Shown here piece by piece: positions 13,685-27,586 of a DNA stretch of 64,000 nt. Position 1 is the stretch's first letter; every line of letters starts with the position of its first letter. The notes under the pieces are model-generated. The model searched no databases, was not told where the DNA came from, and worked only from the letters and a program-made list of their open reading frames with translations. The translations under genes and the position numbers were made by a program. This DNA is from Fervidobacterium pennivorans (GTDB taxonomy: Bacteria > Thermotogota > Thermotogae > Thermotogales > Fervidobacteriaceae), in NCBI RefSeq assembly GCF_001644665.1, contig NZ_CP011393.1:1448001-1512000 (forward strand), written 5' to 3'.

Positions 13685-13981
13685 GTGGTGGATAAAATTG
13701 GAGGGATTAACCATCTAAAACAGAATGTTTCAATTAATCAAAGCGTTAAAAAACAAAACGAAAGTGAATTTAGCAAAGTACTGTCAAATGCATTAAAGAA
13801 TGTGAATGAACAGCAAAAGAATGTTGAGAAAATGGCTGATGATTTTGCCATGGGAAAGGTGAGTAACATACACGAACTCATTGTTGAAGCCGAAAAGGCG
13901 TCTATATCGTTAAGGTTAACTGTTGAGGTGAGAAACAAGATAGTGGAAGCTTATAGGGAAATTATGAGGATGCAGTTCTAA
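13685..13981 (+). CDS. fliE: flagellar hook-basal body complex protein FliE
   Basis: FliE links the MS ring (FliF) to the rod. The 98-residue product has the C-terminal signature [31 protein letters not shown]. The GTG start at 13685 uses GGGAGGTGA, which overlaps the flgC stop, so translation is coupled. A terminator follows, which ends the three-gene operon; fliF and the rest of the flagellar genes lie elsewhere. Confidence 0.95.
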
Positions 13982-14063: not shown

Positions 14064-14085
14064 GCGGGGCTAAAAGCCCCGCTTT
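14064..14085 (+). terminator. terminator after flgB-flgC-fliE
   Basis: GCGGGGC (14064-14070), loop TAAAA, GCCCCGC (14076-14082), then TTTATTA. It may also work for the convergent gene at 14142. Confidence 0.88.
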
Positions 14086-14141: not shown

Positions 14142-15110
14142 TTACTGACCTCTGACAAATGGAAGAACAAGGGCTACTGCACCAAGAACAACGCCTATCC
14201 AAGCAATCATGTTGACGTTGTTAACTTTTTCTTCAACTGCTTTTGCGTCTGCTTTTGTATCAATCTTTGCTTGTAAGTCTTTCACGGCATTTTCAAGAGC
14301 AGAGGAGTCTGCTTTTGTATCAATCTTTGCTTGTAAGTCTTTCTGAGCATTTTCTATAGCTTTCCTGAGGAGATAGTCAGTATCACCGATTTGTGCAGCA
14401 AGTCCTGTGAGTATCTCATTCATCCCTGCAATCTGTTCTTGTAAATCTGTAACACTTGCTTCTAAATCTGTAACACTTGCTTCAAGAGCATCAACTTGTT
14501 CTCTGTCTGCTTTCATGGAGAGGTTGTCGTAGATATTGACAATATCTTGGTCGTGCATATCGAGTTTGAGGGTCAGCGATTCTATTGAAGCTGATATTTC
14601 TTCAAAGCTTGCGAGTTTTTCTTGGACAGCTGCAATTTGTTCGGAAAGAGTTCCAAGTGTGTCGTATATCTTGAGGATATCGCCGTCGTGGATATCAAGT
14701 GTGACTTTAATATCATCGAGCATCGGGAGAATTTCATCCATAACCTCGGCTTTGGCTTCATCTTTTAATGTTGACAATGAAACTTCCATATAAGATGTCA
14801 ATCTTTCTTCAACTGCAGCGAGATTTGCAGAAAGTTCGTAAAGCATGTCTCTAAGTGCTGGCAATCCTGTATCAATGGTGCTTTGAATGTTCAAGACTTT
14901 TGTCTCAAGTTCGGAAATTCTCCCATCTAATTCTGCTAGCGCTGTTTCAAAATCATCTGAAGAGACTTTTGTGCCCAAAACATCGTAGATCATGTTTGTG
15001 TACTCTTCCAAAAGTTCAATTCTGTTGAGTAAAGTCTCCATATCTACTTCTTGCGCAAAAGCGAAAATTCCAAAAAGAACGACCGCAATAAGAATCCCCA
15101 GTTTCTTCAT
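14142..15110 (-). CDS. Omp-alpha-like coiled-coil protein lacking the SLH domain
   Basis: A 322-residue protein with a signal peptide (MKKLGILIAVVLFGIFAFAQ), a long heptad-rich coiled coil and a C-terminal hydrophobic anchor (MIAWIGVVLGAVALVLPFV). It is a paralogue of the protein at 24768-26090: LLEEYxNMIYDVLGTKVSS, LETKVLNIQSTIDTGLPA and GLAAQxGDxDYLLRK are shared. Unlike that protein it has no N-terminal SLH domain for cell-wall binding, and the two shared blocks occur in the reverse order. The likely place is the periplasm, anchored in the outer sheath. I chose the ATG at 15110 behind GGAGGG. The gene is monocistronic. Confidence 0.85.
   Translation of the reverse strand: MKKLGILIAVVLFGIFAFAQEVDMETLLNRIELLEEYTNMIYDVLGTKVSSDDFETALAELDGRISELETKVLNIQSTIDTGLPALRDMLYELSANLAAVEERLTSYMEVSLSTLKDEAKAEVMDEILPMLDDIKVTLDIHDGDILKIYDTLGTLSEQIAAVQEKLASFEEISASIESLTLKLDMHDQDIVNIYDNLSMKADREQVDALEASVTDLEASVTDLQEQIAGMNEILTGLAAQIGDTDYLLRKAIENAQKDLQAKIDTKADSSALENAVKDLQAKIDTKADAKAVEEKVNNVNMIAWIGVVLGAVALVLPFVRGQ
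14248..14343 (-). repeat. 60-bp tandem repeat unit inside the coiled-coil gene
   Basis: A 36-bp exact direct repeat occurs at 14248-14283 and 14308-14343, period 60 bases. It encodes two copies of KDLQAKIDTKAD in the coiled coil, so the rod was lengthened in frame by 20 residues. Confidence 0.9.
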
Positions 15111-15245
15111 ACTCAATCCCTCCTTCTGAGAAATGTGATAAGTTTAAAATGCAAAAACCAACCGTTAAGAAAGAAAAAGAAATAATTCCAAACTTATAGC
15201 GATATATTTCAATGCAAAAAATTTCACCGCTACCAGCCAAATTAT

Positions 15246-15505: not shown

Positions 15506-15760
15506 ATGGAAAAGCAGGACATCATTAAGGAATTCCAGATTCATGACGCAGACACTGGAAGCACAGCGGTCCAGATAGCACTTTTAACAGCTCGCATAAG
15601 ACACTTGACAGAACATTTAAAGAAACATCCAAAAGACTATCACTCCAGACGGGGACTCATGAAGATGGTTGGACGCAGAAGAAAGATGCTCAAGTACCTG
15701 ATGAAGAAAGACCCCGAACTTTACAAACAACTCCTTGAAAAGTTGGCATTGAGAAAGTAA
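15506..15760 (+). CDS. rpsO: 30S ribosomal protein S15
   Basis: S15 binds the three-way junction of 16S rRNA early in assembly of the small-subunit platform. The 84 residues carry the family core, [36 protein letters not shown] and [10 protein letters not shown], with the usual rRNA-contacting H and D residues. The ATG at 15506 follows ACGGAGGTGT. It has its own promoter and terminator; pnp, a common neighbour in other bacteria, is not present here. Confidence 0.98.
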
Positions 15761-15822: not shown

Positions 15823-16880
15823 GATAGTGTTAACTTGTAGTGATGAAAGAGTGTAATTGTGAAAGAATGCGATTGATATTGCCATTGTGCGTTTTCCAAA
15901 GATTCTTCACTACACAAAATCCTTGAATATATTTCGCTAAGTTCTTCGTATTCTTCAGCCCTCGCTTGAGTCGGAAAAAGTCTTTCAACAATGAAAACTT
16001 AGATTCACATTGATTGTTTTTACCGAGCGGTACCACTACGTGATTGATATTTCTGAACAACAGCTTTACTGCACTTTCATATGCACCAAGTCCATCAGTA
16101 ATAAGTTCAATGTTTCTAGGTTTTGAATTACCAAAGAACTTCTCGAGCAATACTTTGACTTGTCCCATATCACGATACTTTGAGACATGCCAACAAAGAA
16201 TTAAGTTAGTTTCGTGATCAACTAATAGCCAAACATAGTACTTTTGTTCTTTGAACACAAGAACAGTTTCATCAGCATGAACTGAGAAAACATTTTCGAT
16301 GGTAAATGTTGGAAAAAGTACAGAGAATAAAGTACACAGTTTAATAACCCATTTATATATGGTGACATGAGATACTTTGATATTAAGAGAATGAGCAAGA
16401 GAGCGATAAGACATATTGTGTTTCATATACAAAACAAAAGCCTTTAAGACGAAAAAGATAGGGAAGCGGAAATATTTAAATTTCTCAGGAATAAGGGTGA
16501 CTGGTTCGGGGAGGTTAAAAGGTACTCTATCTTTGGTACGACAAGCTCTACAACGGAAGACAACGAAAGAGCGACGGACTTTGTAAATTTGCATAGATTT
16601 ACCACAAGAAGTGCATTTGGGATAAGGGAAAGGGAAGTTTTTGCGTTTGTGAGAATGGGAGAGTTTGAAAGAATGATGGCAGAGTTTGCAAAGGAATTGT
16701 TGGTTACCGTATTTGTCATGACCGTTTTTGTATAAGCTGGTGGAACCGCATTTTGGACAAGAGAGCGTTGAGTTGTTCATATCGGGATACCTCCTTTGTC
16801 GAGAGTTGGTTGGGGGTGTCCCCTCTTTATAAGGATAATGCGGTTTTTGGAAAGTTTCAATACTTTTAGTTAACATTATC
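15823..16880 (-). mobile_element. complete 1058-bp IS with 8-bp target duplication
   Basis: The element begins GATAGTGTTAACT and ends AGTTAACATTATC, inverted repeats with a single mismatch. It is flanked by the direct repeats GAATCACC at 15815-15822 and 16881-16888. It holds one transposase gene on the minus strand. The 8-bp duplication and the single DDE-type gene fit an IS6-like element, but the N-terminal zinc ribbon and short ends leave the family uncertain. The target duplication is unmutated, so the insertion is probably recent. Confidence 0.93.
15830..16780 (-). CDS. IS transposase, DDE type, IS6-like
   Basis: Transposase of the surrounding element, 316 residues. An N-terminal zinc ribbon (CPKCGSTSLYKNG, FLCKLC, then CTSCGKS and CRAC) precedes a helix-turn-helix (IKVSHVTIYKWVIK) and a DDE core: HADETVLVFKEQKYYVWLLVD holds the first Asp, ITDGLGAYESA the second, and NNQCESKFSLLKDFFRLKRG the Glu. 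The real start is the ATG at 16780 behind GGAGGT; the frame is open a further 74 codons upstream but that stretch leaves the IS and enters queA. The stop codon lies inside the left inverted repeat. It appears intact and able to mobilise the deleted copy at 2.5 kb. Confidence 0.9.
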   Translation of the reverse strand: MNNSTLSCPKCGSTSLYKNGHDKYGNQQFLCKLCHHSFKLSHSHKRKNFPFPYPKCTSCGKSMQIYKVRRSFVVFRCRACRTKDRVPFNLPEPVTLIPEKFKYFRFPIFFVLKAFVLYMKHNMSYRSLAHSLNIKVSHVTIYKWVIKLCTLFSVLFPTFTIENVFSVHADETVLVFKEQKYYVWLLVDHETNLILCWHVSKYRDMGQVKVLLEKFFGNSKPRNIELITDGLGAYESAVKLLFRNINHVVVPLGKNNQCESKFSLLKDFFRLKRGLKNTKNLAKYIQGFCVVKNLWKTHNGNINRILSQLHSFITTS

Positions 16881-16905
16881 GAATCACCAAAGGGGGACAA
16901 AAAGT

Positions 16906-17949
16906 ATGAAGCCAGTTGACTTGTATAAACTAGAAGCATATGATTATACCCTTCCCGAAGAATTAATTGCTCAGGAACCTGTAGAACCACGGGACCATTC
17001 AAGGCTCATGGTAGTGAACAGAAAAACGCAAGAAATTGAGCACAGGATTTTTAAAGACATTGTGGAGTATTTAAATGCTGGGGACCTTCTGGTATTTAAC
17101 ACTTCGAAAGTGATTCCAGCAAGGATAATAGGCAGAAAACCTACAGGTGCAAAAGTCGAACTGCTTTTGCTTGAGAAGATTGAACCAGGCGTATGGAAGT
17201 GCCTTGTTAAGCCAGGTAAGGCGATAAAGGAAGGAACAGAAATTATTTTTGATGTTCACAACAACGAAATCGCGTTGACAGCCAAATGTGTAGGAAGAGC
17301 CGAAGAAGGTACACGACTTGTTGAATTTTCAACAAAAAATGACAACGAAATCTTTGCGTTAGGAAAAGTTCCTTTACCACATTATATAAGCAATGACAAT
17401 ATAGATTTTGAAAGATATCAAACTGTGTATGCAAAATATGAAGGTAGCGTTGCTGCTCCTACTGCTGGGTTACATTTCACGGAACAGCTATTGGAAAGGA
17501 TTCGAGAGAAGGGTATTCTCACTGCTGAGGTTGTACTCCACGTTGGCATTGGGACGTTCAGACCTGTTAAAGTTGAAGACATCCGTCAACACAAAATGCA
17601 TGAAGAATATTACGTTGTCCCTGAAGAAACAGTTCATATAATTGAGCAAGTAAAAAACGAAGGTGGGAAAGTTTTCGCTGTTGGAACCACAAGTGTGCGA
17701 ACGTTGGAGACCATCGCTCGTCTCCCCAAAGCGCCATCTTATTCTGGAAAAACAGATATATTTATCTATCCGTCTTTCGAGTTCAAACTTGTTGATGCGT
17801 TAATTACCAATTTTCATCTTCCAAAATCATCTTTGATAATGCTTGTTAGTGCATTTGCCGGCTATGAGTTGATAATGAAGGCTTACAAAATTGCTGTTGA
17901 GGAAAGGTATAGATTCTTCTCTTTTGGTGATGCAATGCTCATACTTTAA
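16906..17949 (+). CDS. queA: S-adenosylmethionine:tRNA ribosyltransferase-isomerase
   Basis: QueA transfers and isomerises the ribose of SAM onto preQ1 at the wobble position of tRNAs, making epoxyqueuosine. The 347-residue product is the normal size. Family motifs are YTLPEELIAQEPVEPRDHSRLMVV, GAKVELLLLE, GSVAAPTAGLHF, HVGIGTFRPV and VDALITNFHLPKSSLIMLVSAFAG. The ATG at 16906 lies nine bases after AAAGGGGG. The IS ends 25 bases before the start, its target repeat directly touching the ribosome binding site, so the native promoter is gone or lies beyond the element. Possible read-through from the IS end is not demonstrated. Confidence 0.96.
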   Translation: MKPVDLYKLEAYDYTLPEELIAQEPVEPRDHSRLMVVNRKTQEIEHRIFKDIVEYLNAGDLLVFNTSKVIPARIIGRKPTGAKVELLLLEKIEPGVWKCLVKPGKAIKEGTEIIFDVHNNEIALTAKCVGRAEEGTRLVEFSTKNDNEIFALGKVPLPHYISNDNIDFERYQTVYAKYEGSVAAPTAGLHFTEQLLERIREKGILTAEVVLHVGIGTFRPVKVEDIRQHKMHEEYYVVPEETVHIIEQVKNEGGKVFAVGTTSVRTLETIARLPKAPSYSGKTDIFIYPSFEFKLVDALITNFHLPKSSLIMLVSAFAGYELIMKAYKIAVEERYRFFSFGDAMLIL

Positions 17950-24767: not shown

Positions 24768-26090
24768 ATGAAAAAAGTCTTGACGCTAGTTGCTATTTTT
24801 TTAGTTCTCAGTATATCTATGGCAGCTTTCAGAGATATTCCAAAGGGACACTGGGCAGAATCATTTGTAACCAGATTGGAAGAAGCTGGAATTGCAACGG
24901 GCTTTCCCGACGGCACCTATCGTGGTGACGAGGCAATAACAAGGTATCAGATAGCGGTTTTCCTAGTTAGAACTCTTGATTATGTCTTTCAAACGGTTGA
25001 TTCAAATTTGCAAAACTTGAAAGCAACGCTTGAAAGTACTACCAGCGAAAAATTAGATGCAGTAAAGCAAGACATTGAACAACTCCAGATTGAACTTGAA
25101 GATGCGAAAGTTGTTCTTGATTTACATGACCAAGATATAATCAAACTTTACGACCTTGTGAATTCTATCCAAGACAAATTCATTTACACAGATGAAGATG
25201 GTAATCAACAAGAAATTGACCTTGTTACTTTGAAGAACGACGTTCAAACGATAAGCGAGATTCTTAACGGTTTGGCAGCTCAGCTCGGTGATGTTGATTA
25301 CCTTTTGAGAAAGCAGATATCTGACACAACAAAAGACCTGCAATCGAAGATTGATGCAATTAACAAGACTGTTGAAGATATAAAGAGCCAACTTGCAGGT
25401 TTGCAGGAGACACACCAAATTGTTGAAGCGAGACTTAACGAACTTGACGAGGCAGTGGCAAATTCTTATACAACTCTCTCAGATGCGATTATGGGACTTC
25501 AAGAGGAACTCAACACGAGCAATAGTGAATTGAAGGAGCTATTGGAAACAAAAGCGGATAAAGAAGCATTTGCATCATTAGTTTCAAGAGTAGAGTTACT
25601 TGAAGAATATGTAAACATGATTTACGATGTGCTTGGAACAAAGGTTTCTTCGGAAGAATTTGAAGCAACAACGACAGAATTAGATAATAGACTTTCAGAA
25701 CTTGAAACTAAGGTACTCAACATTCAAAGTACAATAGACACAGGTTTACCAGCCATCAGAGACATGGTTTATGAGCTCTCTTCCAATTTGGCAGCACTCG
25801 AAGAAAGAGTAACTACATACACAGATGTTAGAGTTGAAGCTGTTGAAGAAAATCTGGATGTTTTGGCGGAAAGAGTGAACCTTCTTGAAAACCAAGCTGT
25901 AAGCCTTGAACAGATTGTTAAAGAAGTCAAAGCTGACAAAAGTGAAGTTGAAGAAGTAAATAAGAAGCTAGAGGAACTAAAAGCTGAGAAATCTGAGGAT
26001 GTAAAACGATTAGAACAACTGGCGCAGTGGGGTATTGGGCTTGGTATAATAGGTGTAATCGTAGGAATAGTTGGTTGGTTTAGACCGTAA
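24768..26090 (+). CDS. Omp-alpha-like SLH and coiled-coil outer-membrane spacer protein
   Basis: In Thermotoga, Omp-alpha is a rod that tethers the outer sheath (toga) to the cell wall. This 440-residue protein has the same plan: a signal peptide (residues 1-20), an SLH domain (about 21-75: FRDIPKGHWAESFVTRLEEAGIATGFPDGTYRG, read in two parts), a long heptad coiled coil (about 80-420) and a C-terminal hydrophobic anchor (IGLGIIGVIVGIVGWF). The SLH end would bind the wall and the C-terminus would sit in the outer membrane. The ATG at 24768 follows AAAGGGGG. It is followed by the porin gene. The paralogue at 14.1-15.1 kb lacks the SLH part. Confidence 0.9.
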   Translation: MKKVLTLVAIFLVLSISMAAFRDIPKGHWAESFVTRLEEAGIATGFPDGTYRGDEAITRYQIAVFLVRTLDYVFQTVDSNLQNLKATLESTTSEKLDAVKQDIEQLQIELEDAKVVLDLHDQDIIKLYDLVNSIQDKFIYTDEDGNQQEIDLVTLKNDVQTISEILNGLAAQLGDVDYLLRKQISDTTKDLQSKIDAINKTVEDIKSQLAGLQETHQIVEARLNELDEAVANSYTTLSDAIMGLQEELNTSNSELKELLETKADKEAFASLVSRVELLEEYVNMIYDVLGTKVSSEEFEATTTELDNRLSELETKVLNIQSTIDTGLPAIRDMVYELSSNLAALEERVTTYTDVRVEAVEENLDVLAERVNLLENQAVSLEQIVKEVKADKSEVEEVNKKLEELKAEKSEDVKRLEQLAQWGIGLGIIGVIVGIVGWFRP

Positions 26091-26248: not shown

Positions 26249-27586
26249 ATGAAGAAACTTTTAACGGTTTTGGTAGCACTTTTGGTAGTTGTTAGCATGT
26301 TTGCAGCGGAAAAACCATTCACACTCGGTCCAAACGTAACGTACACAGGAACAGTTAACTTCTCGCTTGTCGTAACAAAAGACGGAGTTGATATTGACGG
26401 TTCATTAACAAATGTTACAGCATCGCTTGCATTTGGTCCAAAAAGCGATACACAGGCTGGGGCAACATTTAGTATAACTTACGTACCATTTGGTGGAGTT
26501 AATCTTACACTCAAGAGCATCACATTCTCCACACCATACTTTGGAGCATTCTACAGCACAGATAAACAGTTTGTAAGTGATTATTTCACAGGTCTTGTCT
26601 ACAACTCAGATGGTACAACCTCATGGGCAGACGCAATGGCAGATTTCAAAGACTCATTAAAACTTACACTCCCAGCAGTTCCAGGTCTTGAAGTTTACTA
26701 CCTTGACAAAGTAAACGAAGGTGCCGCAACATGGTTCAGCGATATGGTTCTTGTAAAATACCCGGTAGCTGGTTTCACAATCGTTGGTGGAACATACAAT
26801 ACAGGTAACACAACAACACACGAATTCGGTGCAGAAGTAAAAGGTGCACTCGACTTTGGAATATTCAAACCAAACCTCACAGTATTCGGTGGTATGGTTG
26901 ATGGCGGAGAAGGAATGGTAACAGCATACGACGTTATTCTTTCTGGTTCACTCTCACCAGTTACAGGACTAACACTTGCTCCAACATTCAAATTTGCAGA
27001 AAATCTTGACAAACTCGACTACAGATCAACAAAGATTGCAAACGGTAAATACATCAGCCTTGGTGTAACATATACAACAACATTTGCACCAGTTACGCTT
27101 ACAGCAAAAGTTACACCAAAAGTAGACTTCGCATCAGCCACACCAACGACAACACTTCCACTTAACGAACTTTCAGCAAAGATAGCACTCTCACCAGTAA
27201 CATTCTATGTAAAGACAACAAATACTAACCTTTTGACAAACAACCCATTCACACTCTATGCAAAAGCATCTTACGAAGATGCAATGTTGTCCGCAGCTGT
27301 TGATGCAAGCTGGGCAGATATGACACAGCTTGCAACATACACATACATCCATGGAGCAGTAACCATCAAGGCAACACCAGAACTTACACTTTACTCGGAT
27401 GTTCACAAGATAATTGCAAGTACGAACGACTTTGGTTACAACGTTAGAGCAGAATATGCGATCACACCAAACGTAAAGTTGACAGGATTCTACGGAACAT
27501 TGACGACAGATCCTGACACCGGTGCTTACGTAATCAACGAAGATCCAACATGGAACGTTAAACTCACATACACAGCAAGCTTCTAA
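26249..27586 (+). CDS. Omp-beta-like outer-membrane porin
   Basis: A 445-residue secreted protein with a signal peptide (MKKLLTVLVALLVVVSMFAA) and a mature chain of amphipathic strands rich in Thr, Gly, Tyr and Ala, ending in ...TWNVKLTYTASF, an aromatic C-terminal residue as in many outer-membrane barrels. Its position directly after the Omp-alpha-like gene matches the Omp-alpha/Omp-beta pairing known in Thermotoga. The strong binding site AGGAGGAGGG suggests abundant synthesis. The nucleotide sequence favours ACA, CCA and GTA codons, also consistent with high expression. Confidence 0.85.
   Translation: MKKLLTVLVALLVVVSMFAAEKPFTLGPNVTYTGTVNFSLVVTKDGVDIDGSLTNVTASLAFGPKSDTQAGATFSITYVPFGGVNLTLKSITFSTPYFGAFYSTDKQFVSDYFTGLVYNSDGTTSWADAMADFKDSLKLTLPAVPGLEVYYLDKVNEGAATWFSDMVLVKYPVAGFTIVGGTYNTGNTTTHEFGAEVKGALDFGIFKPNLTVFGGMVDGGEGMVTAYDVILSGSLSPVTGLTLAPTFKFAENLDKLDYRSTKIANGKYISLGVTYTTTFAPVTLTAKVTPKVDFASATPTTTLPLNELSAKIALSPVTFYVKTTNTNLLTNNPFTLYAKASYEDAMLSAAVDASWADMTQLATYTYIHGAVTIKATPELTLYSDVHKIIASTNDFGYNVRAEYAITPNVKLTGFYGTLTTDPDTGAYVINEDPTWNVKLTYTASF

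Follow-up and report, generated by a model that had tools for sequence, protein, structure and literature searches.

Position and layout of the gene

The window, a stretch of 64,000 nucleotides from the genome of Fervidobacterium pennivorans (G000), carries on its reverse strand, at 14142-15110, the gene for a protein of 322 amino acids, here called X, which is an Omp-alpha paralogue lacking an SLH domain. The limits proposed for this gene in the initial annotation proved right, the frame starting with an ATG at 15110 and ending with a stop codon at 14142-14144. Upstream of the ATG lies a ribosome site graded as good (AAGGAGGG-ATTGAGT-ATG); a TTG start at 15116 reported by the ORF tool was discarded as an artefact of start-codon choice.

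The gene has fliE as its convergent neighbor (13685-13981, forward strand) and rpsO as its divergent neighbor (15506-15760, forward strand), and both also adjoin the X orthologues described below. Directly 3' of X a G+C-rich hairpin with a T-rich tail (14064-14082, no strand assigned) is a probable terminator of X transcription; one such structure was found against 1.3 expected by chance. A search of Rfam gave no match at the X locus. An ORF resembling a transposase and beginning with a zinc ribbon (CPKCGS...C..C) is located between rpsO and queA (15830-17002, reverse strand) and overlaps the start of queA as called.

The protein is composed of a signal peptide, a coiled coil and a C-terminal hydrophobic helix. 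The signal peptide (residues 1-19, MKKLGILIAVVLFGIFAFA; 15054-15110) is kept in all 10 orthologues. The coiled coil was dissected using five short profiles (e, p, h, q and t) built from blocks seen in these proteins and scanned over all members; the profiles were trained partly on scanned sequences, so that the bit scores given here are inflated for those members while the module order is unaffected. Module e (RIELLEEYTNMIYDVLGTKVS, residues 30-50; 14961-15023) scored 53 bits and begins a stretch designated block B, the remainder of which is module p (ELETKVLNIQSTIDTGLPALRDMLYEL..., residues 67-111; 14778-14912; 95 bits). Module h, with the motif HDxDIxxIYD, is present twice, at residues 133-159 (LDIHDGDILKIYDTL; 14634-14714; 49 bits) and 178-204 (LDMHDQDIVNIYDNL; 14499-14579; 52 bits), a duplication missed by the initial annotation. 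The second copy opens block A, which ends with module q (ILTGLAAQIGDTDYLLRKAI, residues 229-259; 14334-14426; 68 bits). The hydrophobic anchor, recognized by its hydrophobicity and by a tail profile, covers residues 301-319 (MIAWIGVVLGAVALVLPFV; 14154-14210) and forms a single helix, the protein ending three residues later; the predicted secondary structure is all helical, with low confidence.

Shared modules in different orders

X was compared with the 440-residue protein Y, encoded on the forward strand at 24768-26090 between tyrS and the ompB porin gene (26249-27586, forward strand, assigned from its ORF and synteny). This gene order is the secG-tyrS-ompA-ompB synteny described for Thermotogales (PMC3387000), indicating that Y is OmpA1 (Omp-alpha), the rod linking the toga and the wall. 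Its SLH domain (24828-24950) is followed by modules h (25101-25181), q (25248-25340), t (25446-25514), e (25587-25649) and p (25698-25835) and by the anchor (26019-26075); module h occurs here once. The X gene does not lie in this synteny, being placed between fliE and rpsO.

BLASTP aligned X26-139 with Y270-381 (61% identity, E 2e-42) and, crossed relative to this piece, X153-283 with Y90-209 (35% identity, E 5e-18), whereas the best collinear segment reached only E 0.008; the two blocks are therefore shared in crossed order, as had been claimed. Compositional bias alone can yield weak matches, as those to SMC, Rad50, spike and other coiled coils illustrate, and the shared blocks could be read as generic coiled-coil similarity devoid of true paralogy or permutation. 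This reading is almost certainly wrong. In 500 shuffles in which each residue was kept in its own heptad position, scores never came near those observed for block B (300, against a shuffle mean of 39 and maximum of 66) or block A (138, against a mean of 39 and maximum of 57), which excludes generic heptad composition, and the module profiles scored 49-95 bits in X.

Pfam detected the SLH domain of Y (residues 21-61, E 1.5e-9) and none in X, and a genome-wide SLH search also gave no match at X, in agreement with the proposed absence of this domain. The remaining Pfam and NCBIfam matches of X were to generic coiled coils, all below the curated cut-offs. The best PDB sequence match was 8qox, a 'conserved membrane protein' (E 6e-5), covering the coiled coil and tail and possibly compositional. 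An AlphaFold2 model based on 10 orthologues was all helix and of low confidence (pLDDT 47, pTM 0.20), and was not used further.

The module order is e-p-h-h-q in X and h-q-t-e-p in Y, and the two proteins differ in order in every genome that has both. The order also varies within each group: the X orthologue of G069 (L052:4485-5432) reads e-q-p-h-h, with q ahead of p, a reshuffle within one orthologous group, and OmpA1 reads e-h-q-t-p in G067 and h-q-e-p-t in G068. The permutation between X and Y is genuine, but it is no special property of X as first supposed: rods of the Omp-alpha family are built from a small kit of modules in fluid order. In the family's remaining genera (g3, g4 and g5), every OmpA1 with a detected module q has the order h-(h)-p-q; p precedes q there as it does in X, indicating that q before p is a feature of Fervidobacterium OmpA1. 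The family is a clear case of long coiled-coil modules being freely reordered while the sequence of each module is kept.

The e-p block is 73% identical at the DNA level between X and Y in G000 (range 73-75%). Recent gene conversion was considered as a cause and rejected, since synonymous sites are saturated (dN 0.15, dS about 3); to judge from these rates, the similarity is old and constrained and not the product of recent copying. A tree of e-p units, built on the question of whether the OmpA1 copies of G000, G070 and G068 derive from X, mixed X and Y copies and did not separate the alternatives; holding the X rows together was not rejected (p-AU 0.17).

Distribution, anchor and rod length

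Orthologues of X were found in 10 of 11 genomes of Fervidobacterium and its sister genus, the exception being a genome 60% complete; X is present in every sampled Fervidobacterium genome complete enough to judge, so that the SLH-less paralogue sought in other members of the genus does exist. The fliE/rpsO synteny holds wherever neighbors were captured, with both genes flanking X in eight assemblies and rpsO alone seen in two assemblies of the sister genus. In the remaining three genera of the family no X was present at rpsO in the seven genomes whose rpsO neighborhood was read. A profile built from the 10 X sequences was run on 45 genomes of the order, and its matches were checked manually against those of an SLH search in these genomes: outside Fervidobacterium and its sister genus every X-profile match lay in a frame also carrying SLH. 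Purifying selection acts on X, with dN/dS of about 0.11 between G000 and G070 and of 0.06-0.20 in further pairs with nearly saturated dS. In a 2012 survey (PMC3387000) an SLH motif was reported as apparently present in every OmpA homologue identified, and the SLH-less X falls outside that census. The SLH search of G000 gave matches at 466136, 638709, 1472828 and 1837548, that is, four SLH proteins per genome against two OmpA genes in the 2012 survey; one SLH protein is a giant coiled coil with a frame of 1031 amino acids (980-1139 in most related genomes).

A third paralogue of Omp-alpha type, Z, was missed by the initial annotation. It is encoded after purine-synthesis genes at about 2051.5-2052.5 kb of G000 (L081:5483-6457, forward strand), and matches of the X profile consistent with Z were found in 11 of 11 genomes of Fervidobacterium and its sister genus. 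Z is a secreted protein with modules e-p-h-h, no SLH and no anchor. In 8 of the 10 members read, its mature N-terminus carries HxH...ECxCE after the signal peptide, possibly a metal-binding motif.

The anchor of X was compared with those of OmpA1 using a profile made from the C-terminal 45 residues of X, with about 900 shuffled tails as control. OmpA1 tails of g3 and g5 scored 27-41 bits (top 40.9) against 11.4 for the best shuffle, confirming that X is an Omp-alpha paralogue with a homologous C-terminal anchor, as had been proposed; OmpA1 tails of its own and the sister genus scored 6-21 bits (13.1 in G000). The simplest reading would be that X retains an older form of the OmpA1 tail and that, in its own genus, OmpA1 has undergone rearrangement close to the anchor.

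Rod length, taken from the end of the signal peptide or SLH to the start of the anchor at 0.149 nm per residue, was determined in nine genomes. In G000 the rod of X has 280 residues and that of OmpA1 346 (41.7 versus 51.6 nm), a difference of 66 residues, and X was the shorter in all nine genomes, by 4.6 to 18.7 nm. The two lengths were correlated (Pearson 0.85, Spearman 0.92), also by independent contrasts (0.80, p 0.009) and with the longest case, G074, removed (0.71, p 0.048). For SLH proteins other than OmpA1 the open-frame length was used in place of rod length; contrasts of X with OmpA2, an SLH protein with a frame of 493 amino acids, gave 0.80 (p 0.010), and 0.62 (p 0.10) without G074. 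No covariation with X was found for the anchorless Z or for OmpB. This test was conceived after the lengths had been seen and covers nine genomes, and it is suggestive and not proof. In G074 (L051 and other loci), unusual length is shared by OmpA1 (578 amino acids), OmpA2, X and a further SLH rod, and the periplasm of this species is accordingly predicted to be wider.

Possible roles in the toga

X shares with Omp-alpha/OmpA1 of Thermotogota (TM0477 of Thermotoga maritima) the signal peptide, an alpha-helical rod of the same modules and a matching hydrophobic C-terminal anchor, and differs from it in the missing SLH, the shorter rod, the module order and the fliE-rpsO locus in place of tyrS-ompA-ompB. 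OmpA2 (TM1729) and the other SLH coiled-coil proteins found here are likewise envelope rods, and the length of the 493-residue frame tracks that of X, but they carry SLH. The SlpA/OmpM connectors of Deinococcus and Veillonella have a long coiled-coil spacer with its C-terminal end in the outer membrane, as proposed for X (PMC9388160), together with an N-terminal SLH and a C-terminal outer-membrane beta-barrel, neither of which X has. The Braun lipoprotein Lpp is a coiled-coil rod contributing to the spacing of the periplasm (PMC8824477), a concept that X may share although the two are unrelated in kind, Lpp being covalently linked to the wall and X having no wall-binding element.

X is probably best described as a spacer or strut, and there is about an even chance that it is specifically a duplicated Omp-alpha rod acting as a membrane-anchored spacer of the toga that does not bind the wall. 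A duplicate of OmpA1 would have lost the wall-binding SLH and kept the signal peptide, coiled-coil modules and C-terminal anchor. X would then form its own homo-oligomeric rod, held by its C-terminal helix in the toga membrane, presumably the outer membrane, and spanning most of the periplasm (about 42 nm, versus about 52 nm for OmpA1) without gripping the wall. While OmpA1 ties, X might act as a strut setting the distance of the sheath, or as a filler of sheath that has come off the wall. The covariation of its rod length with that of OmpA1 lends this role indirect support. On the other hand, module p is conserved strongly, residue by residue, suggesting specific binding and more than a passive spacer needs, and a signal peptide with a C-terminal helix could equally well lodge X in the inner membrane.

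The latter point is the basis of a rather unlikely alternative, in which a stalk formed by X would be fixed in the inner membrane and point outward through the periplasm, where it might carry some other envelope protein, with the helix as an ordinary stop-transfer segment. A signal peptide combined with a C-terminal transmembrane helix is the usual inner-membrane arrangement, and the anchor of X is more hydrophobic than that of OmpA1 in all nine genomes with both, as would suit this location. However, OmpA1 anchors elsewhere in the phylum are equally hydrophobic, and the homology of the X anchor to OmpA1 anchors, which are reported in the outer membrane (PMC9388160), favors the toga. The conservation of the modules would instead be the main point if X were an adaptor binding a specific partner, either OmpB, another rod or a secreted enzyme, which it positions or displays at the toga, its length being secondary. 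Consistent with this, module identity is kept while order changes, and the e-p blocks of X and Y are similar in spite of saturated synonymous sites, suggesting that residues beyond the heptad pattern are kept; but the Pfam and NCBIfam scans revealed neither a catalytic nor a named binding domain, and free reordering of modules would be odd in a position-specific adaptor, making this role improbable.

The modules and anchor type common to X and OmpA1 would also permit their co-assembly into mixed rods in which X lowers wall binding as a built-in competitor, which we consider very unlikely. Counted from the anchor in G000, module p is 189-233 residues away in X but 61-106 in Y, and module q 41-71 in X but 226-256 in Y, so that like modules of the two chains cannot come to lie side by side in a single parallel rod. 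Together with the difference in order in every genome and the 66-residue difference in length, this mismatch makes separate homo-oligomers likelier than mixed rods, and competition within one coiled coil unlikely. X might still compete with OmpA1 for space or for the porin. The Omp-alpha rod is called four-stranded in the title of a reference cited by PMC9388160, which itself speculates on a trimeric complex.

A wider scheme, which we offer tentatively and consider less likely than the spacer role itself, is that one module kit has given three rods, one holding wall and membrane (OmpA1), one the membrane only (X) and one neither (Z), the two anchored kinds being matched in length to the same gap and X serving as the non-binding strut where the toga is untied. 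How the toga of Thermotogota is kept at a constant distance along most of the cell, yet can balloon at the poles, is not settled, and current models of the toga involve SLH-bearing rods and porin. A conserved rod that lacks the SLH grip, with a length that moves with that of the gripping rods, suggests that the roles of tie and spacer are separable and can be tested singly.
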